Source: Rhodovarius crocodyli (lineage in GTDB: Bacteria; Pseudomonadota; Alphaproteobacteria; Acetobacterales; Acetobacteraceae). Taken from it: a stretch of DNA of 64,000 nucleotides. Location of the stretch: assembly GCF_004005855.1 (NCBI RefSeq), contig NZ_SACL01000009.1, positions 1 through 64,000 of the forward strand, read 5' to 3'. The notes beneath the pieces were generated by a model. That model was not told where the DNA came from. It made no database searches and saw nothing but the letters and a program-made list of their open reading frames with translations. Both the position numbers and the translations under genes were made by a program. This document shows, piece after piece, positions 1,518 to 15,853 of this stretch (its first letter is position 1; each line of letters starts with the position of its first letter).

Positions 1518-1567
1518 CGCCCTTGGTAAGGGAGAGGTCGAGAGTTCAATCCTCTCTGGCAGCACCA
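1518..1567 (+). repeat. tRNA-Thr(GGT) 3' half, an attachment site remnant
   Basis: Reads as a tRNA from the anticodon arm to CCA: anticodon loop TTGGTAA at 1523-1529 (anticodon GGT), 3' stem GGGAG, variable loop AGGTC, T-stem GAGAG, T-loop TTCAATC, T-stem CTCTC, acceptor strand TGGCAGC, discriminator A, CCA at 1565-1567. No D-arm or 5' acceptor strand precedes it, and the anticodon stem has one G-A mismatch. It is therefore not a functional tRNA but the duplicated 3' half left by integration of element A. Confidence 0.75.
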
Positions 1568-1569
1568 TC
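1541..1569 (+). repeat. left 29-bp direct repeat of element B (att core)
   Basis: This stretch, starting AGAGTTCAATCC and ending GCAGCACCATC, recurs exactly at 14480-14508. It covers most of the TPsiC arm, the acceptor strand and CCA of the tRNA-Thr remnant. Outside these 29 bp the two copies diverge at once on both sides, so the repeat marks the recombined core and the ends of element B. Confidence 0.85.
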
Positions 1570-1625
1570 CGATCTCATTGATCGAGCAGGGTTTTCCGCA
1601 AAATCAGGTACTTGCCGCGTCTCTT

Positions 1626-1646
1626 GTGCTACAAAGAGGTGCTACA
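1626..1646 (+). promoter_or_regulatory. paired GTGCTACA arm-type sites, left end
   Basis: Two direct copies of GTGCTACA (1626-1633 and 1639-1646) separated by 5 bp, just inside the left end of element B and directly before the integrase start. A near-identical pair lies inside the right end at 14399-14419. Placement at both ends fits arm-type binding sites of the element's tyrosine integrase. Confidence 0.55.
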
Positions 1647-1660
1647 GCGTGGCCCTGAGC

Positions 1661-3178
1661 ATGATCCGCCCGACCAAACATCCCCGCACCGGCATCTATC
1701 ATGTGCGCAAAGCCGTACCTGCGGCGCTCCGCGGCGTCGTTGGGAAGCGCGAGTGGATCGAGAACCTCGGGACCAAGGACCCTGACGAGGCAAAGCGGCT
1801 CGCGCCTGCTGCTGTGACCCGGATCGAGGCGATGCATCGTGTCGCGCTGTCGGCAATCGGAACGCCCCGCCGCCTCACTCAGAAAGAACTGATGGCCTAT
1901 GCTGGGGAATGGTATCGGGAGTTCATGGGCGCCTGGGAAGATGACCCCGGCGACGTGGAGGGCTGGGAGCGCTGGCAGGATATCCTGAGCGACAACCTAG
2001 ACGAGGAGGATGACGGATCGCGGTCCTACCTCTATCGCCAGCCCGACATGGATGAGGCCGCCTCGTATCTGCGAGGGCGGGGCGTATCCCCAGACCGAGA
2101 GACAATCCGGACATTCTCCAGGGTCCTGAATTCGGTGAAGCACCGGGCGGCCCGCAAACTGGCCGAACGAGCGGGCGGTGACTACTCGCCTGATCCCAAT
2201 CTCATCACCTTCCCGGCATTACGCTCCACCCCGCCTGCGGAGCCGACAACCCCGACGCTCACATGGGCAGCGCTGCTAGCTCTATGGGCAGCGGAAAGGC
2301 GTCCTGCTGCGGCCACCCAAAAGAAATACGGCGCGGTATCCCGTACCATCGTCCGTGTTCTGGGCTTCGATGACGTGCGGCGAGTTAGCCCGCAGGACGT
2401 AGTGACGTTCAAGCAGGCTCGATTGGCCGAGGGTACCTCTGTCAAAACCCTGAGTGACGACATCTTGGCGGCGGGCGCAGTGTCCGCTTGGGCAGTCAAG
2501 AACCGCATCCTGACAGACAACCCATTCAAGGGCCTTGCCCCGGCCCAGGTGAAGCGCGGCGAGGCATCCCGCCAGGGATACTCGGATGAGGAGGCGAGGC
2601 GTATCCTTGCGGCCTCGCGGGTAGAGACGAACCCGTTGCTGCGGTGGACGCCGTGGCTCATGGCCTTCACGGGAGCGCGGATTAGCGAGCTCGTGGAAAT
2701 GAAGCGCGGGCACGTGAAGCAGGAGGCTGGCGTGGCCATCCTGGACATCCGACCCACAAAGGACCGCGAAGGGAAGAATGCGACCTTTCAGCGCATGTTA
2801 CCCCTGCATCCGGCGGTGCTCTCCGAGGGCTTCCTCAGCTACGTCGCTGGACTTCCAAGCGACCCGAACGGCCCACTGTTCCCCTCCCTCCAGGTGAAGC
2901 GCGGAACGCTGGCCGCGAAGGCAGCAACCGACATCGGCCGGTGGATACGCAAGACGGTTGGCATCACAGATGCGGCGAAGGCGCCGAACCATTCGTGGCG
3001 GCACCGGATGGAGGACGAACTCCGCAAGGTCCGAGCCCTGCCAGAGGTGCAGGACGCCATCACCGGAAGGCACAACCCGAGGAACGCCGGGGCGGGCTAT
3101 GGCAGGGGGTTTAGGGGAATGCCTGACGAGGTGCTTAAGGACCTCGCGAGGGTGCCTTCGCCGCTCCCTCCCAAATAA
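1661..3178 (+). CDS. tyrosine-type integrase (element B), DUF6538-like N-terminus
   Basis: A 505-residue integrase starting at MIRPTKHPRTGIYHVRKAVP. This opening (a short beta-strand block with YHVRKAVP and later KDPDEAKRLA) resembles the DUF6538-type N-terminus of integrases from proteobacterial islands. The frame is open back to 1511 through the tRNA repeat, but that part is not protein-like; GTG at 1649 is an alternative start. Catalytic set: Arg340 (TGARISEL), His444-x-x-Arg447 (HSWRHR), His471 (GRHNPR) and Tyr480 (AGYGRG). It lies next to the left direct repeat and is the likely enzyme for integration of this element. Confidence 0.88.
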   Translation: MIRPTKHPRTGIYHVRKAVPAALRGVVGKREWIENLGTKDPDEAKRLAPAAVTRIEAMHRVALSAIGTPRRLTQKELMAYAGEWYREFMGAWEDDPGDVEGWERWQDILSDNLDEEDDGSRSYLYRQPDMDEAASYLRGRGVSPDRETIRTFSRVLNSVKHRAARKLAERAGGDYSPDPNLITFPALRSTPPAEPTTPTLTWAALLALWAAERRPAAATQKKYGAVSRTIVRVLGFDDVRRVSPQDVVTFKQARLAEGTSVKTLSDDILAAGAVSAWAVKNRILTDNPFKGLAPAQVKRGEASRQGYSDEEARRILAASRVETNPLLRWTPWLMAFTGARISELVEMKRGHVKQEAGVAILDIRPTKDREGKNATFQRMLPLHPAVLSEGFLSYVAGLPSDPNGPLFPSLQVKRGTLAAKAATDIGRWIRKTVGITDAAKAPNHSWRHRMEDELRKVRALPEVQDAITGRHNPRNAGAGYGRGFRGMPDEVLKDLARVPSPLPPK

Positions 3179-3210
3179 GTTGCGCCATCGAACAGACACC
3201 GCACCTCAGA

Positions 3211-3224
3211 TGCAGCTCACTGCA
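3211..3224. promoter_or_regulatory. TGCAG-N4-CTGCA palindrome, copy 1
   Basis: TGCAGCTCACTGCA: 5-bp inverted arms around 4 bp, followed by CACTTATCCCC-like sequence shared with copy 2. One of four such palindromes in the element; the binding protein is unknown. Confidence 0.4.
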
Positions 3225-3535
3225 CTTATCCCCTTCATTCATCCCTAAGGGAGATGTGCGTGTGAAGCCTCCTGCACCTCGCGCTTGTCGTTCCTGTCCA
3301 TCTCCGACCCTATCTCGCACCCTTCCAGGGGTGCGAGGCGGGACCTGGGAGGGAGGCGCAGCAGAGTGCGTTGGAGTTGCGGTAGCGGAGAAGGCTGAAC
3401 CCTCTGGGATGGCCGATGTCGATTAGGACCCCCTACTGAAGGCCCGAACCGCAGTGCTCGGCTTCGCTGAAGTGGTTGCCCGATCAGGGTGGCCCTTCCC
3501 TAAAGAACCTCTGTGATGTCGCCCTTCAGAACAGG

Positions 3536-3549
3536 TGCAGTTCACTGCA
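3536..3549. promoter_or_regulatory. TGCAG-N4-CTGCA palindrome, copy 2
   Basis: TGCAGTTCACTGCA with a G before the left arm, about 70 bp upstream of the polymerase-like gene. Its downstream flank (CTTATCCCCC) matches copy 1, so the repeated unit is larger than the palindrome itself. Confidence 0.4.
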
Positions 3550-3617
3550 CTTATCCCCCTTATCCAATCATTCCTGAGGAGATGGGTGGGGGAAGCCCTG
3601 CCTAAACGAGCCTCTAT

Positions 3618-5075
3618 GTGAACCCAGAGACCACCGATACCCATAACTGGAAACGGTTTCCTACCGGCCCGCCGGTACCAACACGTGATCCTGACCCTTC
3701 GGGCTTTGCCATACCCGAACCGGCGCTTTCGTCCGCCACCCTGGAGGCCAGCCGGGGTATCCATTGGCGACTTGCCCCGCACAGCCAGGCCGCCAGAGCA
3801 TTCACCTTAGATGTGGAGCGTCTTGCGCTTGCGTCCGAGGAGCGCGGACGAGCACGCGGTGCCTTGGATGCTGAAGCGTTCCGCGTTGCTCTCGCTGCCA
3901 TTGTGGGCTCCGCCCTTGAGGCATGGAGCCGAAACCCTCCATGGCCCGTCTCGCACTCGCTCAGTGCCTCTGCATTCACCTTGCTCCCCGTGGGTGCGCG
4001 TACTGCCCGTGCGGCATTCCAGGCCCTCGTGGCGGCCAACCTTCTCCACCTCGCGCCTGGCATTCGTGCCCAGCGGAGGAACGGCGCTTGGTCTGGCATG
4101 GTGTCGCGGTGGTGGCCCACGCTGCAACTAATCCGGCTCGCCGTCCGTCATGGCCTCACCCCTGCCACCCTCCTCTCAGGCGATGCATTCCGCTCCTCCG
4201 AACCCGTAAGCGCCCCCGCTACGGCCGCCCGGTCGGACATCGAATGCAAGCCGGTCGGATGGCGCGACGGGAACAATCGGACCTGGCGAGAGGAACCCTT
4301 CACCCTGCTATCTGCCGACACGCTGGAAGCCGCCCGCGCTTCGGTTCGTGAGCTTCAATCCAGGGTCGCGCAGTCCACTATCACCGGCTGCCCGCCCCCC
4401 ACCTTCCACCGCATCCTCTACGGCTGCGAGGCGGGGCACGGACGGTACTACGTGCATGCCCCCGGCGGTGTGTCCTATCAGCAGATGCCGAAGGCTCAGC
4501 GGCTCGCCCGGATAGCCATCAATGGCGAGGCGGTGGCGGAGGTGGATGTTCGCGCCTCTCAGCTATCCATCATGCATGGGCTTCTCGGCATCCCGTTGCC
4601 TGATGGCGACCCCTACGCCGTTACCGGCATCCCTCGGATGGCCGTGAAGGCATTCATCACAGAGACCCTAGGTGTCGGGCAGGCAAAACAGCGGTGGAGT
4701 GCGGCCACTGCCGCGCGTGCAAAGGCGGAGTGTTGGCCGCCCATCCATATCGTCAGCGCAGCGGTACGCCTCCGCTACCCGTTCCTTCGTTCTCCCGCAC
4801 TGGTGGTGTCTCCTAGCTTCCTACCCCATGTCCCCCCTGAGGTGGCCCTTTGCCACTACCTTTGCGGCATTGAGGCGGAGGCCATGACCACCGCCATGCG
4901 TCTCCTATGGCGGGACCATAAAGCCCTCGCCCTGCCTATCCACGACAGCCTGATGGTGCCGTGCTGGGCCGTCGATGCCGCGCAGGACGCCATAGATACT
5001 GCCTTCCTGACGTTCGCAAACGTCTCCCCCACCATCACCGCAGACCTCCCGCCCGCATTCGCAGCGGCGGCCTAA
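3618..5075 (+). CDS. divergent single-subunit family A-like polymerase
   Basis: A 485-residue protein from a GTG start. The C-terminal 200 residues carry the three palm/finger motifs of family A polymerases (Pol I, T7 RNA polymerase). Motif A is EVDVRASQLSIMHGLLG with Asp310 (compare DYSQIELRIMAHLSG). Motif B is RMAVKAFITETLGVG with Arg340 and Lys344. Motif C is LPIHDSLMVP with His442-Asp443-Ser444 (compare HDE of Pol I, HDS of T7 RNAP). There is no 3'-5' exonuclease motif. The first ~230 residues are unrecognised and could be a priming or DNA-binding part. It is followed 104 bp later by an RNase H homologue, which suggests a replication or repair unit of the element. Whether it makes DNA or RNA cannot be told from sequence. 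Confidence 0.6.
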   Translation: MNPETTDTHNWKRFPTGPPVPTRDPDPSGFAIPEPALSSATLEASRGIHWRLAPHSQAARAFTLDVERLALASEERGRARGALDAEAFRVALAAIVGSALEAWSRNPPWPVSHSLSASAFTLLPVGARTARAAFQALVAANLLHLAPGIRAQRRNGAWSGMVSRWWPTLQLIRLAVRHGLTPATLLSGDAFRSSEPVSAPATAARSDIECKPVGWRDGNNRTWREEPFTLLSADTLEAARASVRELQSRVAQSTITGCPPPTFHRILYGCEAGHGRYYVHAPGGVSYQQMPKAQRLARIAINGEAVAEVDVRASQLSIMHGLLGIPLPDGDPYAVTGIPRMAVKAFITETLGVGQAKQRWSAATAARAKAECWPPIHIVSAAVRLRYPFLRSPALVVSPSFLPHVPPEVALCHYLCGIEAEAMTTAMRLLWRDHKALALPIHDSLMVPCWAVDAAQDAIDTAFLTFANVSPTITADLPPAFAAAA

Positions 5076-5179
5076 GGTCAGCGCCACAAACTCTCAAAAC
5101 GACACCCTCCAGGCCGCCTCTAGGTCGCCCTCCCATCAGCGGACGGTGGCCCCTTTGGCATGCCCATAAGGACAACCCC

Positions 5180-5743
5180 ATGACCCTCAGTTCTCCCGAT
5201 GCGGCCAAGCCGCCGATGCCGGATAATGCCCCGCCGTCATCATCCCTCGTCACGCCCGCCGGACCCATCTCTGTTTGGATTGGTGGCGCATGCCAGCCCA
5301 ATCCCGGTTGCGGTGCGTGGGCCGCTGTGACCCGCGATCCCGATGGCGATGTCACCGAGCTTTCAGGCCATCATATTCAGACCACGAACAACCGGATGGA
5401 GCTCTACGCCGCAATCCGTGCGCTGGAAGCACTCTCGCAACTGAGCGATGTCACGGTCCATAGCGACAGCGAATACGTCTCCACTGGTGCTCGGCTGTGG
5501 CTGCGTAAGTGGAAGGCATGCCGGTGGCGGAACGCCAAAGGCAAAGCGGTCCTCAATCGCGACCTGTGGCAGCGCCTTTCGTTCGCCATCGACCAGCACA
5601 TTGTGACGTGGTGCCACGCTCCTCGCGGCGAGCATGATCCGATGGGTGAGCGAGTGTCCCGCCTGGTGTTCAAGGGGGTGCGGCGAGCGGATGCCATCAG
5701 GCGCCAGCGATCTTACCTCCTTCAGGATGAGGTGGAGTTTTGA
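5180..5743 (+). CDS. RNase HI-like protein with degenerate catalytic site
   Basis: Encodes 187 residues from the ATG at 5180, with AAGGA at 5168-5172. Residues ~30-170 align without large gaps to E. coli RNase HI: PNPGCGAW, TTNNRMELYAAIRALEAL, HSDSEYV, NRDLWQRL and a His (146) in the GHAG region. Of the four catalytic acids, Glu74 (E48) and Asp96 (D70) are kept, but the first Asp (D10) is Gly35 in WIGGACQ and the last (D134) is Ser160 in GERVSRL. It is therefore probably a binding protein or an altered enzyme rather than a standard RNase H. A 25-residue Pro/Ser-rich extension precedes the fold. It shares an operon with the polymerase-like gene. Confidence 0.8.
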   Translation: MTLSSPDAAKPPMPDNAPPSSSLVTPAGPISVWIGGACQPNPGCGAWAAVTRDPDGDVTELSGHHIQTTNNRMELYAAIRALEALSQLSDVTVHSDSEYVSTGARLWLRKWKACRWRNAKGKAVLNRDLWQRLSFAIDQHIVTWCHAPRGEHDPMGERVSRLVFKGVRRADAIRRQRSYLLQDEVEF

Positions 5744-6001
5744 GCGGTTCCATCTTTGAACGGGAGCGCCTGCGCCCCGCCACGACCCCTACCCAAGTCG
5801 TCGCGGTCTCCCCACACGGGTGCCTCGTGAGGTGTGGGACCAGCTGGGCAATGCCGTGCAGGGTCAAGCCAAGGAGGAATAGGTTCCTCTACTCTAGAGA
5901 ACGACGGTTGGAGCGCTGCGCCTAGCAACTCCTCAAGGCTTCCTAACGAGGGCTTTTAGGAGGAGTGGGTGGCAGGGGACCGAGTGACGAAGTGTCTTGA
6001 G

Positions 6002-6041
6002 GAACCCAGAGGCCGTCGCTACCCGTAACTGGAAACGGTCT
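6002..6041 (+). repeat. degenerate copy of the polymerase gene start
   Basis: About 34 of 40 bases match 3620-3659, including GAACCCAGAG and TAACTGGAAACGGT. The short frame from 5997 (to 6185) reads NPEAVATRNWKRS against NPETTDTHNWKRF at the polymerase N-terminus, then departs. It looks like a duplicated and decayed 5' fragment, so the element has undergone internal recombination around the polymerase/RNase H module. Confidence 0.55.
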
Positions 6042-6180
6042 TTGACCCCCTTCCGCCTGCCCGCGCCCTGCCTAGCTGGAACACCGCATGCCTCCGAGAT
6101 TTTGGCGAAAAAATCTGAGAGGGCACCCCCGGGACGGCCGATCCCACTTTCCCCCCGTGGGGGTGGCCTCGCGCCCCCGC

Positions 6181-6252
6181 GTTAGCCTTGATCGGGCGCG
6201 GGTGCGGGCGGGTTAGCTTTGATCGCGAGCATGCCCGGGCGGGTTAGCGTGG
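6181..6252 (+). repeat. 31-bp iteron-like tandem repeat, 2.3 copies
   Basis: GTTAGCCTTGATCG at 6181, GTTAGCTTTGATCG at 6212 and GTTAGCGTGG at 6243 start exactly 31 bp apart. The first two units also share their GGCGG ends (the first 6181-6211, the second 6212-6242); the third is partial. Direct repeats with a three-helical-turn spacing are typical of iterons bound by a replication or partition protein. The binding protein is unknown. Confidence 0.55.
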
Positions 6253-6381
6253 CACCTCCAGATAATGCGACCCGGGGCAGGCAGGCCATAGTGGTGCAGT
6301 CCCGGTAGGGTGTCGGGTTCCCCCCCCCGCTGCCACCGCGCCGTTGGGCCGCTCGGGGCAATGGCGCTGAGTGGGTGTCGG

Positions 6382-6395
6382 TGCAGCCGACTGCA
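6382..6395. promoter_or_regulatory. TGCAG-N4-CTGCA palindrome, copy 3
   Basis: GGTGCAGCCGACTGCACC (6380-6397) is the exact reverse complement of the 18-mer at 8364-8381. With copies 1 and 2 it makes a dispersed palindrome family inside element B. Confidence 0.4.
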
Positions 6396-6531
6396 CCCTC
6401 CCGCTGCCTTCGGTTCGGTGATGCGGGCCGGGAACTTAAGGCGATGATGCCGCCCTACCATGGGGGGGTGTATTCCGGGCGGCCTAACCGCTCCTGCCCG
6501 CACGCCTGCCAACAAGATCACTAGGGCTTGG

Positions 6532-6630
6532 TCTTGTGATCCGGTTCCTGCATGGCTGCCATGTGGATCACACACGTTGCCATTTGGTTTTTGATCAGAT
6601 CATGATCGGGCATCCACCCTTGTGATCGGG
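6532..6630. promoter_or_regulatory. GATC-rich inverted repeats, candidate res site/operator of the resolvase
   Basis: The 100 bp before the recombinase start contain TGTGATCC (6535) facing GGATCACA (6566), then TTTGATCAGATCATGATCGG and TTGTGATCGGG close to the start codon. Serine resolvases bind inverted-repeat subsites directly upstream of their own gene, which serve both as crossover site and as operator. The arrangement fits, but subsite boundaries cannot be set by eye. Confidence 0.4.
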
Positions 6631-6637
6631 AACCCCC

Positions 6638-7294
6638 ATGCTCATCGGATACGCCAGGACATCCACCGCCGATCAGGAAGCCGGGCTTGAGGCCCAGCAG
6701 CGCGACCTGACCACGGCCGGGTGCGAGCGCATCTTCGCGGAACGCATCTCATCCCTGGCCGCCGAACGCCCCCAGCTATCGGAAGCCCTGCGGTTCGTCC
6801 GCTCCGGTGACACGCTGGTGGTCGCCAAGCCTGACCGCCTGGCCCGCAGCACGGCCAACCTTCTCGCCATTGTGGACGAGCTACAGGGGCGGGGCGTGTC
6901 GCTGCTGGTGTTGTCCATGGGCGGCCAGCCCCTCGATACGCGCGGCGCCACCGGCAAGCTGATGCTGACCGTTCTCGGGGCCGTTGCCGAGTTTGAACGG
7001 GAACTGATGCTGGAACGCCAGCGCGAGGGGATCGCGAAGGCGAAGGATGAGGGGAAGTATCGTGGCAGGGCGCCCACGGCCCGTGCAAAGGGCGTGGAGG
7101 TGCTGCGGCTGCATGGGCAGGGGGTGGCCGGGGCTGAGATCGCCCGCCGCCTAAGCATCGGTGTAGCGTCGGTGTTCCGCATCCTGCGCGAGGCCCGTGA
7201 GGGAACCGCAGAGGCGGGCAGCGAAGCCCCATCCACGGCCCGCCAGGAGTCCACTGGAGGCGCCCGTAAGCGGGGTGGTAGGGTAGCCGCCTGA
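6638..7294 (+). CDS. serine recombinase (resolvase/invertase family)
   Basis: A 218-residue small serine recombinase. YARTSTADQ carries the nucleophile Ser9; KPDRLARS carries Arg67 and Arg70 of the active site; GKLMLTVLGAVAEFEREL is the start of the long dimer helix; a Hin-type HTH follows at ~155-185 (AEIARRLSIGVASVFRILRE). The 30-residue C-terminal tail is Ser/Gly/Arg-rich. Length and layout match Tn3/Gin-type resolvases. No transposase is nearby, so it more likely resolves multimers of the element or inverts a segment. Confidence 0.9.
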   Translation: MLIGYARTSTADQEAGLEAQQRDLTTAGCERIFAERISSLAAERPQLSEALRFVRSGDTLVVAKPDRLARSTANLLAIVDELQGRGVSLLVLSMGGQPLDTRGATGKLMLTVLGAVAEFERELMLERQREGIAKAKDEGKYRGRAPTARAKGVEVLRLHGQGVAGAEIARRLSIGVASVFRILREAREGTAEAGSEAPSTARQESTGGARKRGGRVAA

Positions 7295-7415
7295 TGGCCA
7301 CTAATCGCCCCCAGCGGACTCCTGCGGGCCGTACTGGCATGGTGCCGTTGTGGCCTGTCAGGACCGTCACCAAGGCACTCTCACCCGGGCATCCGGACCC
7401 ACCAGCCGGGAGGCT

Positions 7416-7655
7416 ATGGCCACCCTTCTGGCGCCCCTGCCGCGCCCGTTGCGAGGGCTTCTCCTGCCCGTGCTGCTGCCTTGCTGGCTCCTCGCGTCGG
7501 TCGTGGCGGCCTTGGTCGGGGGCTTCCTCTTGAAGCCGCTGGAGACCACCGCCGGGCTGGCCGCATGGGGGGCCTTTGCGTGGCTGTTGCTGGCGTTCTT
7601 GGGGGGGGTGAGCGCCGCCCGATGTTTTCCTGATGGCATATTGTTTTCGCTTTAG
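7416..7655 (+). CDS. small two-helix membrane protein
   Basis: Encodes 79 residues from the ATG at 7416; the frame is open from a GTG at 7350. Two hydrophobic segments are clear: LLLPVLLPCWLLASVVAALVGG and LAAWGAFAWLLLAFLGGVSA, joined by a short loop, so a hairpin inner-membrane protein is likely. A competing frame in a different phase starts at 7294, overlapping the resolvase stop as TGATG, but its Trp/Cys/Arg-rich composition suggests a shadow. GGGAGG lies only 2 bases from the ATG, so the start is uncertain. Function unknown. Confidence 0.45.
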   Translation: MATLLAPLPRPLRGLLLPVLLPCWLLASVVAALVGGFLLKPLETTAGLAAWGAFAWLLLAFLGGVSAARCFPDGILFSL

Positions 7656-7677
7656 GCCCCGCATCGCAGCAACGATG

Positions 7678-7770
7678 GTCCCGATATAGGAACCGTCTGT
7701 CCTCGGTCGAGCCGCAAATCACTGGAAATCAAGCGTGCTTTCGATAACGGAATAGTCCCGATTATAGGAC
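7678..7770. promoter_or_regulatory. two operator-like GTCCCGAT-TATAGGAC elements
   Basis: GTCCCGATATAGGAAC (7678-7693) and GTCCCGATTATAGGAC (7755-7770) are near-identical inverted repeats 77 bp apart in the AT-richer gap before the small-protein operon. The second has GTCC/GGAC arms around CGATTATA. They look like tandem binding sites of one regulator controlling the genes from 7863. Confidence 0.45.
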
Positions 7771-7862
7771 TGATTTTGCTTGTATTTTCAGGGTTTCGAA
7801 GCGTTCAAATCGCCGTGTAGTCCTCCTTTCGGGAAACATAACGTCCCCCTGAAAGGTGCCAC

Positions 7863-8096
7863 ATGTCTTTGCCGAACAATCCCCCAACGGTCCCTTACTT
7901 CCCCGGCCTGGAGCTCGCCATCACGCTCGGTGCGATTACCCTTAGGGCCGGTCGTGTTGACCTGTATCTGCGCCGTCGGTCGCCACATGACCCTCGCTGG
8001 TCCTTCCTCCGGGAGCCTAACGATATCGAGCTGTTCGCCTTCGGGCTGGCCCTCACGGTTTCCTGGGGGCCTCGGCGGTCCGGGGAAGCGCAGTGA
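7863..8096 (+). CDS. small hypothetical protein, first gene of coupled trio
   Basis: Encodes 77 residues from an ATG preceded by GAAAGGTGCC. No family recognised; mixed alpha/beta composition with a hydrophobic stretch IELFAFGLALTVSW. The stop overlaps the GTG start of the next gene by 4 bp, so the trio is translationally coupled. Its codon use is high-GC like the element's core, unlike the lower-GC defence-like operon. Confidence 0.6.
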   Translation: MSLPNNPPTVPYFPGLELAITLGAITLRAGRVDLYLRRRSPHDPRWSFLREPNDIELFAFGLALTVSWGPRRSGEAQ

Positions 8097-8338
8097 ACGG
8101 AGTGGTGAATGGTTCCCCTATCAGCGTGCGGACGCGGCGCCAGGTGCGAAGCGCGGTCGAGTTGCTGGCCCTCGCGGCTAGCTATCCCCTGTTCGCTAGA
8201 GAGGCTGAGCTCCAGCACCCGGGAGACACCCTTAGCGAACTAGCGGGGCGCCATGGGCTGTCCTGGGCGGAACTCCTGGCGGCCTCCGCTGTCAAGAAGC
8301 CGCGCGTCAGGGTGAAAGCGATGGTTGCTCCGGTGTGA
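8093..8338 (+). CDS. small hypothetical helical protein, second gene of trio
   Basis: Encodes 81 residues from a GTG that overlaps the preceding TGA as GTGA. Reads VRSAVELLALAASYPLFARE then TLSELAGRHGLSWAELLAAS, two helical blocks. The second resembles a small HTH (SELAGRHGLSWAEL). A DNA-binding role is possible but not established. The stop overlaps the next start as GTGA. Confidence 0.55.
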   Translation: MNGVVNGSPISVRTRRQVRSAVELLALAASYPLFAREAELQHPGDTLSELAGRHGLSWAELLAASAVKKPRVRVKAMVAPV

Positions 8339-8625
8339 GCAAGGCCCCCGACAAGTCGCCGAAGGTGCAGTCGGCTGCACCCGCAGGGCTGACCGTCACG
8401 GACCCTCGCACCCGTTGCTGGGTGCAGGGCCTTTGGCGCATCGTCACGCTAGCCTACACCGACCCTCGATATGAGAGCTATGCGGGGCCGCCCGTGGCCA
8501 CGGCGTGGATGCACTTAAGGCGGCTAGCGGCGGACCGGAAGGTGAGTGTTGAGGAACTGGTGGCGGCGTGTAAGCCGAAGCGAGCGCGGCGGCTAAGCGA
8601 GGCGTGGCGGCAGGGACCTAAGTGA
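8335..8625 (+). CDS. small hypothetical protein, third gene of trio
   Basis: Encodes 96 residues from a GTG overlapping the previous stop. Its middle part (CWVQGLWRIVTLAYTDPRYE, then VATAWMHLRRLAADRKVSVEELVAACK) parallels the second gene's layout of an HTH-like end (DRKVSVEELVAA vs RHGLSWAELLAA). The two may therefore be distant paralogues. It contains the fourth TGCAG-N4-CTGCA palindrome inside its coding sequence. The end overlaps the convergent gene by 8 bp. Confidence 0.55.
   Translation: MSKAPDKSPKVQSAAPAGLTVTDPRTRCWVQGLWRIVTLAYTDPRYESYAGPPVATAWMHLRRLAADRKVSVEELVAACKPKRARRLSEAWRQGPK
8366..8379. promoter_or_regulatory. TGCAG-N4-CTGCA palindrome, copy 4 (intragenic)
   Basis: GGTGCAGTCGGCTGCACC at 8364-8381 is the exact reverse complement of 6380-6397. 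It lies 31 bp into the third small gene, so regulation or protein binding there would act inside a coding region. Confidence 0.35.
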
Positions 8626-8839
8626 CCGGCGTACCATACTCGATCCCGTCGATCTCCCAGGTGTTCACTATGTAATCGAGAAAGGCTTCTGCGCCCTCGC
8701 GCTTTAGACGTGACCGGAGCGAGGCAATGACAGCGTCCTTTGTGATCGGTGCCCCATCTGCTGTGCGCGGCACCTCTGTGATCGCGGACATGGAGATCAT
8801 CGCAATAGCGGGCAATGGCGGTTCATTGTCGTTAGTCAT
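8618..8839 (-). CDS. small hypothetical protein
   Basis: Encodes 73 residues from the ATG at 8839, chosen because GAGG lies 6 bases upstream; the frame is open to 8863. Reads MTNDNEPPLPAIAMISMSAI then KDAVIASLRSRLKREGAEAFLDYIVNTWEIDG, an acidic protein with one long helix. No family recognised. Convergent with, and overlapping by 8 bp, the small-protein trio. Confidence 0.5.
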   Translation of the reverse strand: MTNDNEPPLPAIAMISMSAITEVPRTADGAPITKDAVIASLRSRLKREGAEAFLDYIVNTWEIDGIEYGTPVT

Positions 8840-9190
8840 GCTCAACCTCACTAATGCCTTCACCAGGTATTGCTGACGCTATGGTGCCAGCAACAGCCCC
8901 ACACAGGTCGCTCCGGGCCGCCGCAAGGGTGCCGCTGCGGTTCCCGTGGGCAGGCACCTACACCCGCAGGACTGACTTCCGCCAATTCAACCAGACGCCC
9001 CAAGAACTATGGGGTCTGCCTCAATATTAAAGTATCCGCACCACATAGCATGAACTGGCATGATGGATGCATGCAAGGGCAGCGGATGAGTTCTGATATG
9101 TGGCCCATCATCCACGGCCAATGACTTTTCCTGCATTATTGCAATTCCGACAAATGGTTTCCCGACCGTCATAGGTAGTCGATCCCCCAT
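8840..9190. other. 351-bp gap without a secure gene
   Basis: Frames on both strands overlap here and none is convincing. The best is a 67-residue leftward frame (8987-9190) whose ATG directly abuts the stop of the next upstream gene, which could make it a third gene of the nuclease operon; it has no recognisable family. No repeats or strong hairpins are seen. Confidence 0.35.
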
Positions 9191-9556
9191 TCAGTTTCCT
9201 ACGCGTCCCACTTGATCGTGCCTCGCCACAAACCTTGGGCTTCCTCGCTGGAGCACTGCGTGCTTGCTGGCGTTGCTTATCTCTCTGAGAAATTGAAAAT
9301 TGGTCTCGACCCTGCTCAGATGGCCTAGATACTCCGCAACCGAGATAGCCTCGCGATAGCTGCTGGTATTTGGATCGAATACGCTAGGTCGCTGTCCATT
9401 TAAGTGGTGGTGCCAAACATACTCCGCTGTATGAACGAGAAGCATCGAAGCACAGCGGCCTTTCCATACGCAGCTGTAGTCAGCAAGAAAGCTTCGGACT
9501 GCCGGGTCAACTTCTTCACGGAAGAATTTCTCCGCTTTGCTACTAGGAAGCTTCAT
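9191..9556 (-). CDS. hypothetical protein downstream of nuclease gene
   Basis: Encodes 121 residues, MKLPSSKAEKFFREEVDPAV onwards. The ATG overlaps the TAA of the nuclease gene as TAATG, so translation is coupled. It is helical, with YVWHHHLNG and FLREISNASKHAVL; the NasKH pattern recurs in small helical proteins of mobile elements and bears some likeness to HEPN-type helices. That likeness is weak and no catalytic R-x4-6-H is clear. Function unknown. Confidence 0.5.
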   Translation of the reverse strand: MKLPSSKAEKFFREEVDPAVRSFLADYSCVWKGRCASMLLVHTAEYVWHHHLNGQRPSVFDPNTSSYREAISVAEYLGHLSRVETNFQFLREISNASKHAVLQRGSPRFVARHDQVGRVGN

Positions 9557-9963
9557 TAATGACACCACCCGCCGCGCAGCCCGCTCCCGTCATAGGCCCG
9601 TGCCAGGCCCTCCCGGATCAGCACATGGGCCACGTCGCGCCCCTGCCTGTCCGTCACCGGCGCGAGAAAGCGCCCGTAGCGGTCCCGTCCATGGGCTGAT
9701 AGCCGGACCCCACCGGCCACAAGCTGGCCTAGACGGGCCTTTGCACGACGCGCTAACGCCTCTTCCCGTTGGCACTGGCCGTGCATCTCCGGGGCATCCA
9801 GGCCCATCACCCGCACCCGTTCCGAACCCATGCGTAATGTGTCGCCATCCACTACCGTGACACGCTCCGCTGCGGCCGGGGTGACCAAGGGGGGGGAGCC
9901 CGGGTAATCAAGGCCCTTAATACTGTTGCAGCAGCATACAGCGCGGTTGGAGCGTGCGCTCAT
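9556..9963 (-). CDS. staphylococcal-nuclease-fold (SNase/thermonuclease) protein
   Basis: Encodes 135 residues. The OB-fold nuclease pattern is clear: VVDGDTLRMGSERVRVMGLDAPEMHGQ, then GRDRYGRFLAPVTDRQGRDVAHVLIREGLARAYDG. The catalytic Arg of RVMGLDAPE, Asp of VDGDT and Arg of DRYGR are present, so Ca-dependent nuclease activity is plausible. No signal peptide is seen (Cys-rich N-terminus CCCNS), unlike many secreted homologues. A shorter start is possible. The first gene of a leftward pair. Confidence 0.8.
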   Translation of the reverse strand: MSARSNRAVCCCNSIKGLDYPGSPPLVTPAAAERVTVVDGDTLRMGSERVRVMGLDAPEMHGQCQREEALARRAKARLGQLVAGGVRLSAHGRDRYGRFLAPVTDRQGRDVAHVLIREGLARAYDGSGLRGGWCH

Positions 9964-10067
9964 ACCGTTGCATCAGCGGTTGGGGGGGGCAGCGATCTAC
10001 GCATATTATAGGCGAACCTCCTGATGCCGATACAATCTAGTATACGAAAGCCAGATCTGAACTTCAG

Positions 10068-10094
10068 AAAAATCGTGGATTGCACTGCAATCCA
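10068..10094 (-). terminator. rho-independent terminator of the three-gene operon
   Basis: On the minus strand, directly after the TAG of the DUF262 gene, the sequence forms arms TGGATTGCA and TGCAATCCA followed by CGATTTTT. The inner bases would open to form the loop. Hairpin plus T-tract at the operon end supports a single leftward transcript from 14155. Confidence 0.7.
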
Positions 10095-11786
10095 CTAGTT
10101 CTCATCAATATCGATTTCGTCCTCAGAGCGAAGAGTACTGTCTCCCATTGTGAGGGCAAACTGCTGTAGAAATGTGTTCTCATGGTCCATCAGTGCCGCC
10201 TCTCGTGCGGCTACAAATGCATCGACGTCTCGGGAGCGAAGGGCGGCGAGAGCAGCATCATCTATCCCATGTGACAGCAGCGCTGCCTTGTTACCGGCAC
10301 GGCCCGCAAGGAGGTCGCGAACAGCACTGCCGTGCGTTCTTGGAAGAAGAATCCGGTTAGCCGGGCTGCGAGCAGAGCGCGTTCCCGCAGGACGGAACAC
10401 GTAGGGTAGGTCACGGCGATCCGGGTCCGACATCAGCTCGGAGCCATTAATCGCATCATCCGTGATGGGATCGACCAGGGGCGTGCGAGCCATTTGCACA
10501 AGGAGCATTGCGCGAATGCGGGCGGATCGGCGATCAAAGGTTTTAGGAAATGGTCGGAGTGGCCGGTCAATAAAGAACGCCTCAAAAGAGGCGGTTGAAG
10601 GGCCGTGACCTTCAGATCGGGCATACATTTCCATATTAGCTACTGCACCCTCGACTTCTGACGAATTCGCTGACGCAAACCAACCTTCAAATGATGTTGC
10701 CCAAAACCATCTTCTCAGATTCTTATCTATATCATCCGGCAAATTCTGAGGTGTGTGATTGTTTTGCCGGAAAAATATCCCGAGCAGAAGGAGTTGAAGT
10801 GCATAAGGGAGAAGGCGGCCAGTACTGAAGCCGATTGATTCATTGAGAAATACGCAGGCCTGTTGAAGTGAGCGCGACACTGATTCGACGGATTCTTTTA
10901 GTTTTTCGCGTGTGACTCGCTCTCGTAGGTTGTCAAAGTTTGGCTTGACGAAGTTCCGTCCTGCCGCATGAAGCAAGCTCTGCAATACGATAGTTCGGCT
11001 CACATCGCCGAAGCCGTATGGCTCAAGATCGCCCAAGATGCGGTCTAACGCCTCTTCGAGATTGAAGTCTTCATGATATGTCAGTGCAACTGCCATTTGG
11101 TCGGCCGTCATAGCGCGACCGCTGCGATTGATACGCGAAAAGATGCCTACAGCATCGTCGACGCTGCCGTCGCGCATGATCGTAAGAGCGATCCGGTAAT
11201 CGCGAATGGCACGTTGGACACCATCAGCGCGGTCAAGCAAAAGCACCTTCTCTGGCGAGGAAAGGTTGCTCGCGTCCACCAAGCGGGCAAAACGGATGAA
11301 TTCGGACGTCTTCAAGACGATACGAAAAGGGAGTATTGTCGGGTTTTCGAAATCGTCAGGAAACCGCATTTGCCGCGTCTCCTGAGCAATAAGATCGTAT
11401 CCTAGCCACCAGTGCTGCTCTGCCGGCGTCGCGCTCCTCGGATCGGCGCTTTCTAATCGAAGCACACCATACAACGTGGCTAGACGTTGATGGCCATCGA
11501 GTACGAGGGATACGCTGTGGCCCCGCTTCGGTGCTGGCAGCGGACCAATTTTTGGCATCAGCCGGACATCAGTGTCCTTCGGCTCCCAGAAGAGCAGGGA
11601 GCCGATTGGGTATCCACTGAGAACGCTCTCGAAGAGCTCTCGCATCATCTGCGGCGTCCATACGTATGGACGCTGGAAACGCGGAATTTGGACCCGACCT
11701 TCGTCAACGTCCTTCAACAGGATATCGAGCGAAATGATATCAGGCCGCGCACTAGCCGCAGGCGCCTGGCCGCGAGGAGTCACCAT
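10095..11786 (-). CDS. DUF262 (GmrS/ParB-like) protein of defence-like operon
   Basis: A 563-residue protein with a DUF262 N-terminal domain: IPRFQRPYVWTPQMMRELFESVLSGYPIGS (34-63), and LVLDGHQRLATL (95-106) where most members have DGQQR. Next comes FSRINRSGRAMTADQMA, the usual F-x-R-(L/I)-N block. DUF262 proteins have a ParB-like NTPase/nuclease fold and include the GmrSD enzymes that attack modified phage DNA. A C-terminal block PANRILLPRTHGSAVRDLL resembles the degenerate end of that family; no HNH (DUF1524) His-Asn motif is evident. Last gene of the operon; its ATG is 3 bp from the preceding stop. Role in antiphage defence is inferred. Confidence 0.8.
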   Translation of the reverse strand: MVTPRGQAPAASARPDIISLDILLKDVDEGRVQIPRFQRPYVWTPQMMRELFESVLSGYPIGSLLFWEPKDTDVRLMPKIGPLPAPKRGHSVSLVLDGHQRLATLYGVLRLESADPRSATPAEQHWWLGYDLIAQETRQMRFPDDFENPTILPFRIVLKTSEFIRFARLVDASNLSSPEKVLLLDRADGVQRAIRDYRIALTIMRDGSVDDAVGIFSRINRSGRAMTADQMAVALTYHEDFNLEEALDRILGDLEPYGFGDVSRTIVLQSLLHAAGRNFVKPNFDNLRERVTREKLKESVESVSRSLQQACVFLNESIGFSTGRLLPYALQLLLLGIFFRQNNHTPQNLPDDIDKNLRRWFWATSFEGWFASANSSEVEGAVANMEMYARSEGHGPSTASFEAFFIDRPLRPFPKTFDRRSARIRAMLLVQMARTPLVDPITDDAINGSELMSDPDRRDLPYVFRPAGTRSARSPANRILLPRTHGSAVRDLLAGRAGNKAALLSHGIDDAALAALRSRDVDAFVAAREAALMDHENTFLQQFALTMGDSTLRSEDEIDIDEN

Positions 11787-11789
11787 GCG

Positions 11790-12848
11790 CTACAGATGCC
11801 GCAGTATATTTGTAAGCAACGTATTGATCTCCCGGCTAACGTCCTGAGGAAGTCGGGGTGCGTCGCTGGGTTCGCACCGGTAACGTGTTTCAGTGTAGAC
11901 TGTTGCGAGGCGCTCCCCAAGACCGCCGACCAGGGCGCCCCAATCAACTGGTGCGACAGACCCGTAAAGATCCCGCAGAAGCCGTGGTCGCTCAGGGTCA
12001 CTCACAAACTCAGAATGTGTTGGACGCGGGCCATTTTTGACTTTGGCTCGAAACCCGGTCTTGATCGGGAAAAAAAGTTGCTGATCGTGCAGCATTCTAA
12101 AGAATGCATCGGAAAAAGAGGAGAGCCCATCGGCTGCGAGCCGCTTCCTGAAATAACTTTCGGGGATGTAGTTCTCAATCGTTCGTCCTCGGAGGACGTG
12201 GACGAAGGCAACATGGCTTTCGGCGGCCGTGGCAATGTTTGCGTTCGGTGCGTGCCCCTCGTGGTCAGCGTCACTGTCCAGGACCGCCGCACTACGATGT
12301 TTAGCCAGCGAGATCGGTTGACCGGGCCGTGCCCAGACGCCAGCCGAAATAGCCTCTGCCGATTTTACTATTTGGCCTTTTCCTCCAGCGTGGTGAAAGA
12401 CGAATCGTCCGGCCCTATAAGCCTTGATTATCTCATCTCTTCCTAAAAATCGTGCCATCCACAATATGAAACCGCCATCAGTTTGTTGATCTTCGACGAT
12501 CAATTTGAATGGCTGCATTATCGTGGCCAAGCCAGCTATCGGATTAATTCTAATGGAACCGTCAGATTGTTCTTCGCCTTGATAAGGCCCATTGGCGTCG
12601 AAAATAAGGGTGGTGGCGTCGCTTGTTGTTCCTTTTGATTGAAATTTTACCATTCCAGTCAAGATGCCCCACGTTGTCGCCCTACTAGGCGGGGAGTTGG
12701 TGATCCACGCGCTCTGCCTTAAGCGAGAGAGGCTAGATATTTCAAGAATAATGCGACTTTCGGGCAGCAGCATTAGTTCAACGATAATATCCAATATTGG
12801 AAACCATCGTTGTTCGTTTATTATATTGCCATGTATTGATATTTGCAA
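11790..12848 (-). CDS. TOPRIM-like (OLD/DUF4435-type) protein of defence-like operon
   Basis: A 352-residue protein from a TTG at 12848 with AGAGGA just upstream. The core resembles TOPRIM nucleases that pair with ABC-type ATPases. FKLIVEDQQTDGGFI carries Glu119 and Asp124, FHHAGGKGQIV is a Gly-rich turn, AVLDSDADHEG carries Asp191 and Asp193, and RGRTIENYIPE contains the ENY block typical of these proteins. Function is probably nucleic-acid cleavage controlled by the partner ATPase. The first ~110 residues are unassigned. The gene lies 23 bp after the ATPase gene; lower-GC than its surroundings. Confidence 0.6.
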   Translation of the reverse strand: MQISIHGNIINEQRWFPILDIIVELMLLPESRIILEISSLSRLRQSAWITNSPPSRATTWGILTGMVKFQSKGTTSDATTLIFDANGPYQGEEQSDGSIRINPIAGLATIMQPFKLIVEDQQTDGGFILWMARFLGRDEIIKAYRAGRFVFHHAGGKGQIVKSAEAISAGVWARPGQPISLAKHRSAAVLDSDADHEGHAPNANIATAAESHVAFVHVLRGRTIENYIPESYFRKRLAADGLSSFSDAFFRMLHDQQLFFPIKTGFRAKVKNGPRPTHSEFVSDPERPRLLRDLYGSVAPVDWGALVGGLGERLATVYTETRYRCEPSDAPRLPQDVSREINTLLTNILRHL

Positions 12849-12871
12849 TGAATCCTCTGTCCATCAATTAA

Positions 12872-14155
12872 TCAATGTTGGTGTGATTTTTTGGAGGCTG
12901 CCGATCTCAAATGTATAATGTCATCAAGGGCTTCGTCAAATACTCCAATTGGCCAACTTGTAGTATTTCCTAGATGGTCAAGATCAATGGATCGTATCGG
13001 GTCCTCGGAATCTTCTGCTGACGAACGATGTCCGATAGAGTAAATTCTAACTAAATCAGGAGATAATATTCCTTCGGCTACCCGTCTTCTTAGCCGCGTT
13101 ATAATTTGTTCGCTGTGAGTCTCGATGATGTAAGGCGCGTCGGGAGCTTCCACTGCTCGCGAAATTAATAAATCCATCACCGCGCCGTGTGCGCCAGGGT
13201 GAAGGTGAAGTTCGGGCTGCTCGACGATGAGGATTGGGCTTGATAGTACTTTTTGCCTGTGAGCTAATGCTTGTACGACTATAGGCAGGACCTGAGCAAA
13301 TCCGGCTCCAGTCTCTTGTAGGTCAACGTCTAGGTTGCGACTCGCATCGTGAACTAGCAGGCGCGGAACGCCACCATCTGTGCGAAGCACGGTCGCGCTT
13401 CCGCCTAAAGAGGCGGAGAACCAATCGCTGACTGCCTTCCCAAGGAGACCTTCTCTCCTGAGCGCATCGTCTCCAAGCACCTCTAGCGCCCCTTCGCCGC
13501 GCGGTCCCAAATGCCTAACTCCCTGCCTTGGGGTACGACCGAAATTGCCAGTCTCGGACCGAAAAGGACCTAGATAGGAGGGCTTTCCAAATGCGCTTAT
13601 GAATTGTTCGCGAGCTACTTGAAGGATGCGAGAAATATCATCGTGTTCTGGTATTGAAAAAGGCAACAAGCCGTGCCAAATTATGCTTTCTGTATTAAAT
13701 TTTTTATCCCCAAATATTATATCATAGCTGCCTTTTGGATTTCCTATGTCCTCCGGAGATGTGAGTGAGATTAGGATTTTTTCTCCGGTACTTCTGAGGA
13801 GCTCAAATCTCTCTATTCCTAGAGAATAATTTTCCACAATATGCCGCATAGTGGTGGTGAAAGATAGTATTTCACCATCTTTATTAATTCCTTCTGCTCC
13901 AATATTGAAGCTTTGGGCAGATCTTAGGTGAACGAGATCCTCATATCGATTTCCATGATTTATTCCTCCGGCAGCCAAGTCTACAGGATTATATTCATTA
14001 CTTGTGAGTGCGCCTCCCAGAAGAACCGGCAAGCGTGTCAAAACGCTTTTCCCGCCGCCGTTTCGACCGATAATCACAGTCATGGGTTTCAACTCAAATC
14101 GCACCTCATCCTTGAAGGCGCGATAACGCGAAAATGAGATGGCTATAGGTTTCAC
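12872..14155 (-). CDS. AAA (AAA_15/21, DUF3696) ATPase of defence-like operon
   Basis: A 427-residue ABC/SMC-like ATPase from a GTG start. Walker A is IIGRNGGGKSVLTR (28-41), the signature-like segment LQETGAGFAQVLPI is at ~279-292, Walker B is ILIVEQPELHLHP (308-320) and IIETHSEQII is at 343-352. The C-terminal WPIGVFDEALDDIIHL matches the short DUF3696 end of these proteins. Members act in overcoming-lysogenization-defect and related antiphage systems, sensing damage or phage products and licensing a nuclease partner. First gene of the three-gene leftward operon; base composition is clearly lower in GC than the rest of the window, a sign of transfer. Confidence 0.82.
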   Translation of the reverse strand: MKPIAISFSRYRAFKDEVRFELKPMTVIIGRNGGGKSVLTRLPVLLGGALTSNEYNPVDLAAGGINHGNRYEDLVHLRSAQSFNIGAEGINKDGEILSFTTTMRHIVENYSLGIERFELLRSTGEKILISLTSPEDIGNPKGSYDIIFGDKKFNTESIIWHGLLPFSIPEHDDISRILQVAREQFISAFGKPSYLGPFRSETGNFGRTPRQGVRHLGPRGEGALEVLGDDALRREGLLGKAVSDWFSASLGGSATVLRTDGGVPRLLVHDASRNLDVDLQETGAGFAQVLPIVVQALAHRQKVLSSPILIVEQPELHLHPGAHGAVMDLLISRAVEAPDAPYIIETHSEQIITRLRRRVAEGILSPDLVRIYSIGHRSSAEDSEDPIRSIDLDHLGNTTSWPIGVFDEALDDIIHLRSAASKKSHQH

Positions 14156-14398
14156 CAGGCTATGCTAATCCGGATCTGATCTTTACCAAAGACGGAAATC
14201 GTGAGTCAGCTGCTGGATCGACGCATTTAGTGCGGTTTGCGTGCTCTACGGTTCCTAACGCCGGAGCCAGTTTCTCCCTCAGGTCAGTACATGGCACCCA
14301 CTGTTGGCGTGCATTATCCCCTGGACAGCCTCAGCGCGGCGGCGGAAGGAACACGACCATCCTGGCAGGCCTGCACCCGAAGCCGAAACCGTAGCTAG

Positions 14399-14419
14399 GC
14401 GCTACAAAGGAGTGCTACA
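14399..14419 (+). promoter_or_regulatory. paired GCGCTACA/GTGCTACA arm-type sites, right end
   Basis: GCGCTACA (14399-14406) and GTGCTACA (14412-14419) with 5 bp between, mirroring the left pair at 1626-1646 in spacing and orientation. Matching pairs inside both ends support binding by the element's own integrase. Confidence 0.5.
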
Positions 14420-14479
14420 AACACCCCATCGCAATCGCCCGGAGATCGGCCTTTTACCTAGGTTTCAGCGGCAACTGTC

Positions 14480-14508
14480 AGAGTTCAATCCTCTCTGGCA
14501 GCACCATC
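14480..14508 (+). repeat. right 29-bp direct repeat of element B (att core)
   Basis: Exact copy of 1541-1569 (TPsiC arm, acceptor strand, CCA, TC). Unlike the left copy, its upstream flank has no anticodon arm. It lies 24 bp from the end of the convergent phaZ gene and marks the element/chromosome junction. Confidence 0.85.
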
Positions 14509-15753: not shown

Positions 15754-15853
15754 TAGGCAACGCCCCGAAAACCTGCCCCATGTTGCCAGCGACGAGGCGT
15801 TTCGCAAAAGCGAATTGATTGTTAGCCTGGGTCCGCAGGAAATGGGGTGCCGC

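Follow-up and report, generated by a model that had tools for sequence, protein, structure and literature searches.

A divergent, exonuclease-less family-A polymerase is a core gene of compact bacterial elements at tRNA genes

The first 64,000 nucleotides (nt) of contig NZ_SACL01000009.1 of Rhodovarius crocodyli, analysed here over their full length (the window), contain at positions 3618–5075 (+) the gene of a divergent family-A polymerase-like protein of the phrog_4756 or divPolA2 type (485 amino acids (aa), GTG start). The gene lies in a 12.9 kb integrative element (1541–14508) that has 29 nt direct repeats at both borders. The left attachment (att) repeat (AGAGTTCAATCCTCTCTGGCAGCACCATC, 1541–1569, +) is the 3′ end of tRNA-Thr(GGT) with CCA and the right one (14480–14508, +) is its exact copy; for the 26 nt att core, shuffled sequence gives an expectation of 0 matches. 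An intact tRNA-Thr(ggt) whose 3′ half matches the repeat is present elsewhere in the genome. The element encodes a tyrosine integrase at 1661–3178 (+), in a mechanical open reading frame (ORF) that begins at 1511; it matches DUF6538 (4.2e-13), phrog_1 integrase (7.2e-23) and Phage_integrase (0.0018, under its cut-off). The integrase and the flanking tRNA-3′-end repeats bear out the initial annotation of this DNA, which had placed the polymerase on a mobile element. As a survey of relatives shows, this stripped-down relative of DNA polymerase I (Pol I) is, with the integrase, a shared core gene of small elements that insert at tRNA genes and in many cases carry anti-phage systems.

The initial annotation had described a palm protein of 485 residues without an exonuclease motif. 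The ORF is real, the quoted motifs are found at the residues given for them and no exonuclease domain is present. Motif A has its aspartate at D310 (4545–4547, +; surrounding sequence EVDVRASQLSIMHGLLG), motif B is R340-x3-K344 (K344 at 4647–4649, +) and motif C, IHDS in the window, has D443 at 4944–4946 (+). Conservation was judged from an alignment of 131 rows, which comprises four phage proteins and those 127 of 139 non-redundant loci (146 minus 7 duplicates) whose ORF reaches 370 aa; the 12 loci with a shorter ORF were excluded. D310, R276 and K344 are invariant (131/131), R340 is present in 130, D443 in 129 and H442 in 128 of the rows. Both exceptions at D443 (L166, L168) are cut-off ORFs, and L057, the closest relative and sister of the window polymerase, has F at the H442 position. 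D310, K344 and D443, with which the assignment as a polymerase stands or falls, are conserved in the family and, to judge from this alignment, the motifs are not a product of chance. The third position of motif C is A in 62 rows, S in 41 and E in one.

Direct searches with the window polymerase are nearly empty. It matches no Pfam family at E 10, and the kinship with PF00476 for which the initial annotation had suggested a profile search is not seen. NCBIfam and PDB sequence searches gave no match, and a profile search of PDB sequences gave solely non-significant ones (antifreeze proteins and an antibody chain). As a direct query the protein found no phage record, no IMG/VR locus and one plasmid match. 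The family was reached via the PHROG profile phrog_4756 (‘unknown function’), which matches the window polymerase with E 6.4e-12 in a profile search; the profile also matches one Pol I (2.4e-5), recognised from its motifs. The host genome encodes an ordinary Pol I as well. The window protein is a member of a divergent, exonuclease-less family-A polymerase family, phrog_4756.

An AlphaFold2 model of the window polymerase (79 sequences; mean predicted local distance difference test (pLDDT) 80.7, palm ∼ 95) predicts a right-hand palm, and a structural search agrees with the initial annotation in finding family-A DNA polymerases. These alone appear among the best 50 PDB matches listed by Foldseek (best match E 6.6e-5, probability 1.00, template modelling score just ∼ 0.3). 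The best matches in the viral library are 11 phage proteins of 400–450 aa. Comparison of the family with Pol I by hhalign is weak (P 0.03–0.05) and in the correct register. With Pol I (PF00476) the family shares the palm, the aspartate of motif A, R-x3-K and the HD of motif C, and the GR motif of the window protein (G275-R276) resembles the Pol I TGRL motif. Unlike Pol I, it has no PF00476 match, no exonuclease domains and no recognisable thumb, it has lost E710, and motif C is mostly HD[AS] instead of HDE. In the window protein, the N-terminal domain (aa 36–200; 3723–4217, +) was modelled separately (pLDDT 82.6) and looks like a winged helix; winged-helix regulators, identified by title, are the majority of the best 50 PDB matches listed for it, none of which is significant (best E 0.19).

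Pol I carries HDE as its motif C, T7 RNA polymerase (RNAP) carries HDS. The family resembles single-subunit RNAPs of the T7 type in its HDS-type motif C and in having no glutamate at the steric-gate position. E710 and F762 of Pol I exclude ribonucleotides, according to PMC7581432. In the family alignment the E710 equivalent is E in none of the 131 rows and the F762 equivalent is F in one. At the E710 position 46 of the 131 rows have G or A, 29 have H and the remainder have other residues; within the window's own clade of 19 rows the residues are H (9), Q (5, window included), Y (2), L (2) and F (1). The Pol I comparison set reads D-[YWF]-SQIE in 18 of 22 rows, the remaining four falling outside the pattern. 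The F762 pattern matched 0 of these 22 rows, and the statement on F762 in Pol I rests on PMC7581432. It is clear from the alignment that Pol I's own gate is lost in the family; it is not clear from it that the family uses ribonucleotides freely.

These features raise the possibility of a single-subunit RNAP that transcribes the element or reprograms host transcription, with the palindromes of the element (see below) as promoters or operators. The authors of the divPolA2 study, who name this option, report Dali similarity to mitochondrial and N4 RNAPs (PMC11348598), and the absence of the gate glutamate and the HD[AS] form of motif C point the same way. However, hhalign of the family against T7/SP6 RNAP (a two-sequence profile) was empty, no RNAP is among the best 50 PDB fold matches listed, and no promoter-binding or promoter-recognition domain was recognised in the window protein, which at 485 aa is far shorter than T7 RNAP (883 aa). 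Phage genomes moreover hold up to three copies of the gene in variable places. We consider an RNAP of this kind unlikely.

The phrog_4756 profile was positive in 25 of 398 genomes of the phylum (the host's own, 22 of the same class and two others) and in 0 of 14 controls; one of the 25 is a genuine Pol I, which leaves 24 carriers of the family. A search with the window protein in genomes of the host family was positive in 19 of 299, own genome included, so that ∼ 6% of the sampled genomes carry the family in either set. An alignment that represents the wider branch, run against one genome per species (84,980), detected 385 stretches that encode relatives; the best 80 of these, which were kept, belong to Alpha-, Beta- and Gammaproteobacteria, Desulfovibrio-type bacteria and Nitrospira, with a few isolated records under other labels. 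IMG/VR added 20 relatives. Two different family members as queries gave 286 and 167 matches in phage records, among them ICP1 gp100, Rheinheimera barbaviruses and Aeromonas phages. Gp100 of Vibrio phage ICP1 (L201 8086–9753), annotated as hypothetical, is a member of this polymerase family. Several Vibrio and Aeromonas phages have two or three copies of the gene, and multiple copies per phage are also noted in PMC11348598. The family tree is a quick one, with Shimodaira–Hasegawa approximate likelihood ratio test (SH-aLRT) support only and many long branches.

The phage branch of the family was published in 2024 as divPolA2, suggested there to be either a repair DNA polymerase or an RNAP (PMC11348598); barbavirus gp041 appears, from its description, to be the published divPolA2. 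Kinship of the window protein with the barbavirus-type proteins follows from the phrog_4756 match, from tblastn matches of other members to Barba, ICP1 and Aeromonas phages, and from the tree. As described there, divPolA2 likewise has a palm, no exonuclease, no thumb of a known type and a globular N-terminal domain. That paper treats phage genomes; here it is bacterial elements integrating at tRNA genes that have the gene as their core, together with an integrase, a resolvase and defence cargo. A 2026 survey of bacterial polymerases lists PolA1, PolA2, PolA3 and PolA1-like enzymes, and nothing similar is described in that list (PMC12926913); our literature search found no description of these bacterial tRNA-integrating elements. 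The initial annotation's view that no named system has this make-up must therefore be divided: the phage branch is named and CcPol-MP (below) is known, whereas the bacterial elements were not found described. The polymerase family as such is known, and the window protein represents a branch of it that resides on mobile elements of bacteria.

Over the 139 loci the neighbours of the polymerase gene include an integrase in 91, a resolvase in 76, a Zn-finger protein in 45, hsdM in 21 and hsdS in 16, and more rarely hsdR (14), dcm (9), vsr (8) and RNase H (7). Because some loci are cut by contig ends, these counts are minimums. The Zn-finger protein is Cys/His-rich, ∼ 210–270 aa long, has no Pfam family above cut-off and directly flanks the polymerase in its 45 loci (for example L108 11424–12131 and L124 9306–9965); it is a possible template-binding partner.

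Flanking repeats were sought as exact repeats of at least 18 nt in the 89 loci that have 3 kb or more of sequence to either side (IMG/VR loci excluded). Such a repeat spans the polymerase in 34 loci and is tRNA-derived in 26 and without a tRNA in eight. Twenty-five of the repeats overlap a called tRNA gene (Thr, Leu, Ala, Ser, Gln, Glu, Asn, Cys or Pro) and the window supplies the 26th. The 26 tRNA-delimited elements measure 6.0–15.0 kb (median 11.6) and contain an integrase in every case, a resolvase in 22, the Zn-finger neighbour in 12, a type I methylase in six and RNase H in three. Restriction-modification is their commonest cargo: among 111 ORFs of delimited elements, type I restriction families top both the Pfam and the PADLOC tallies (the 25 most frequent of 89 Pfam and 203 PADLOC families listed). 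The tally covers 111 of 115 ORFs and omits L065:9554–10078, L068:9328–10974, L068:11574–12494 and the antisense window ORF 6645–7664. It replaced an earlier tally of a random sample of neighbour ORFs (of 485 ORFs, 101 were drawn and 99 scanned, L145:2–6490 and the window RNase H omitted, the 25 most frequent families listed), which had mixed in chromosome genes. The bacterial branch of the family thus marks compact elements at tRNA genes, which is new here. Two 5.2 kb copies with the polymerase gene (L156, L157) are 99.87% identical and lie far apart in the genome of HTCC2083. Transposition was considered for these copies and set aside, as the shared stretch ends in a 1.4 kb repeat, possibly an insertion sequence, and its borders are unclear.

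The composition of the elements bears on whether the protein is a repair or bypass DNA polymerase, an accessory gene useful to the element or its host after DNA damage or phage attack. It is without proofreading and travels with defence genes, and phages keep the gene in variable neighbourhoods beside their own replicase, all of which would suit such a role. In bacteria, however, it does not behave like cargo, since it accompanies integrase and resolvase while the cargo changes, and no SOS, RecA or clamp gene was recognised by eye among the recurrent neighbours. We regard a repair function as rather improbable.

In the window element the resolvase is a small serine resolvase/invertase (6638–7294, +; PF00239, 5e-42). 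The cargo includes a SNase-like nuclease (9556–9963, −; PF00565, 6.5e-12), and there are small ORFs as well. At the right end of the element (10095–14155, −) lie together all three genes of PDC-M55, a candidate defence system of PADLOC: PDC-M55C (GmrSD_N/DUF262; 10095–11786, −; 2.9e-126), PDC-M55B (11790–12848, −; 4.3e-31) and the AAA ATPase PDC-M55A (12872–14155, −; 7.9e-84). Some reverse transcriptases belong to anti-phage systems, and with elements so rich in defence genes, the window's PDC-M55 set included, the polymerase might itself be a defence or anti-defence enzyme within an anti-phage system. It matches no PADLOC model at E 0.01, however, and it co-occurs with many different cargo systems rather than with one, and we find this proposal of the initial annotation very hard to credit. 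Outside the element, a long ORF (14533–15960, −) adjoins the right att repeat and reads like a chromosomal gene, presumably for a polyhydroxyalkanoate depolymerase. A second tyrosine integrase (425–1498, +; Phage_integrase, 1.6e-18) stops shortly before the left att repeat and is probably from another element, in tandem in the same tRNA-Thr site. By eye, a short stretch of this integrase region recurs beside the intact tRNA-Thr of contig C45.

The gene that follows the polymerase (5180–5743, +) matches PF00075 with E 9.3e-24, in agreement with the RNase HI fold assigned to it initially; the in-frame ATG at 5180 is a likelier start than 4961. The catalytic acids of RNase HI are D10, E48, D70 and D134 in Escherichia coli numbering. 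Alignment with relatives indicates that E48 and D70 have equivalents in the window protein and that D10 and D134 are replaced by G and S, and because of the loss of these two of the four acids the protein is probably inactive. RNase H occurs near the polymerase in seven of 139 loci (the window, L057, L183, L130, L124, L087 and L116). All four acids are retained in L057, L183, L130 and L116; the C-terminal part of the L124 protein and much of the L087 copy depart from the family. The seven genes all lie < 3 kb from the polymerase, where 36% of the examined flank lies that near (P ∼ 8e-4, with the 3 kb limit set after the offsets had been seen). Six cases are represented in the tree, in separate parts of it, the window and L057 as one sister pair (SH-aLRT 99). 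The link between RNase H and polymerase looks more than chance.

The initial annotation had regarded polymerase and RNase H as a possible self-contained replication or priming unit. Their proximity in all seven loci speaks for such a pair: RNase H adjoins the polymerase in the window and its sister L057 and, separately, in L183, L130 and L124, and is more distant in L087 and L116. Against it, the survey for a conserved linkage leaves 132 of 139 loci without RNase H, two catalytic acids are substituted in the window copy and the L124 and L087 copies deviate. The distribution suggests that elements without RNase H replicate as well as those that have it, and the pair is not supported as the defining feature; that the two genes form a self-contained unit is highly improbable. 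RNase H is an optional companion, decayed in the window copy.

The iteron-like repeats reported next to these genes are real and have the form of a palindrome, GTGCAG-N4-CTGCAC. The element holds three exact copies (3535–3550, ∼ 70 nt upstream of the polymerase start codon; 6381–6396; 8365–8380) and one copy with one mismatch (3210–3225); an additional one-mismatch match at 3262 is less regular. These three are the only exact sites in the 5.27 Mb assembly. Two Rhodovibrio elements from another branch of the tree (L135, L138) have four copies each of a looser form, one inside the polymerase gene. The palindromes are not supported as resolvase sites, as the closer resolvases (L066, 70%; L061, 68%) are in loci without a repeated palindrome; the loci of the L138 (61%) and L135 (42%) resolvases do have it. 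Upstream direct repeats as a family-wide iteron array were likewise rejected (6 of 135 loci; shuffled control 1). The first ∼ 38 nt of the polymerase gene (3620–3657) recur with 87% identity at 6002–6039, downstream of the RNase H-like gene, as either a remnant or a regulatory repeat.

Among the neighbour clusters present in at least four of 139 loci, 10 proteins of which were Pfam-scanned and the others judged by eye, no recurrent helicase, primase or relaxase was recognised. In the top 25 of the 89 cargo Pfam families (111 ORFs), helicase domains occur solely with restriction enzymes, and there is no primase or relaxase. The polymerase is therefore the sole recurrent replication-like gene recognised. 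Because its catalytic residues are conserved and a palm fold is predicted, it would be retained as an active enzyme. Together with the likely DNA-binding domain and the distant analogy to CcPol-MP, these points lead us to favour, with middling confidence, a role of the window protein as the replication-initiating or priming polymerase of the 12.9 kb element, possibly one that makes RNA. In the scheme that we propose, excision by the integrase would release a circular form of the element, and the winged-helix domain would recruit the polymerase to the element's DNA, possibly at the palindromes. The palm would then start or extend a primer on the element, possibly an RNA primer because both ribonucleotide-excluding residues of Pol I are gone. 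The host replicase would copy the remainder and the resolvase would separate multimers, with RNase H as an optional helper for removing RNA. Excision, replication, site binding, de novo synthesis and the choice between RNA and DNA are all steps that we infer.

An initiating or priming role is consistent with the confinement of the exact palindromes to the window element, with the recurrence of the same polymerase-integrase(-resolvase) core at many tRNA genes and with the arrival of RNase H in several lineages of the tree, always < 3 kb away. Several observations weigh against it. Multi-copy palindromes are found in only 3 of 139 loci, so there is no family-wide origin. In the window's own clade all residues at the E710 position are bulky, which makes RNA use there doubtful as far as the alignment can tell. 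The polymerase gene is in pieces in two of the 26 delimited elements (L065, L068) and is therefore not retained in every copy. Alongside a relative, phage Barba31A carries genes for a DNA polymerase and a primase of its own, so phages hardly need the relative as a replicase. Finally, no SSB-like (single-stranded DNA-binding protein) or helicase partner such as that of CcPol-MP was identified, and the window is not among the 45 loci with a Zn-finger neighbour.

A precedent for priming exists on SCCmec (staphylococcal cassette chromosome mec), where primase activity is proven for an A-family polymerase acting with its partner MP (PMC7581432). The CcPol-MP and PolA-SSB primases of SCC elements and the TV-Pol group share with the present family a small A-family polymerase, integrative elements, site-specific recombinases and a replication role, shown or proposed there (PMC7581432, PMC10061031). 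They differ in that CcPol is found in Bacillota with a partner of the oligonucleotide/oligosaccharide-binding (OB) fold and a helicase. No helicase was found among the scanned ORFs of the window element or recognised in recurrent neighbour clusters, and no OB-fold SSB partner was recognised by sequence. CcPol, a dNTP-preferring A-family primase, also retains the E710 and F762 equivalents (PMC7581432), in contrast to the family studied here. In the main text of PMC10061031 a term search finds no Proteobacteria, Pseudomonadota, integrase or winged.

The elements can also be set beside a broader class. Defence islands and satellites at tRNA genes have an integrase, tRNA att sites, exchangeable defence cargo and a size of ∼ 10 kb. 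The elements described here share these traits, and differ in that no packaging genes, primase-helicase or relaxase were recognised and that a polymerase-like gene is the core marker. A more far-reaching proposal, which we put forward tentatively and regard as doubtful, is that a widespread class of compact proteobacterial defence islands starts its replication by means of a divergent family-A polymerase which, having lost both ribonucleotide-excluding residues, makes an RNA or mixed primer. Such an enzyme, whether primase or RNA polymerase, would have arisen in the Pol I line separately from T7 RNAP and CcPol, with RNase H recruited repeatedly as a helper.

The elements give a way to test the function of a polymerase family found both in phages (ICP1, barbaviruses) and in bacteria, and the polymerase gene can serve to mark the small islands at tRNA genes by which restriction-modification and other anti-phage systems spread. 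If the protein does prime, it would represent another origin of priming activity from the DNA polymerase fold; should its product be RNA, it would represent a further step, within the Pol I line, on the way from DNA to RNA polymerase.

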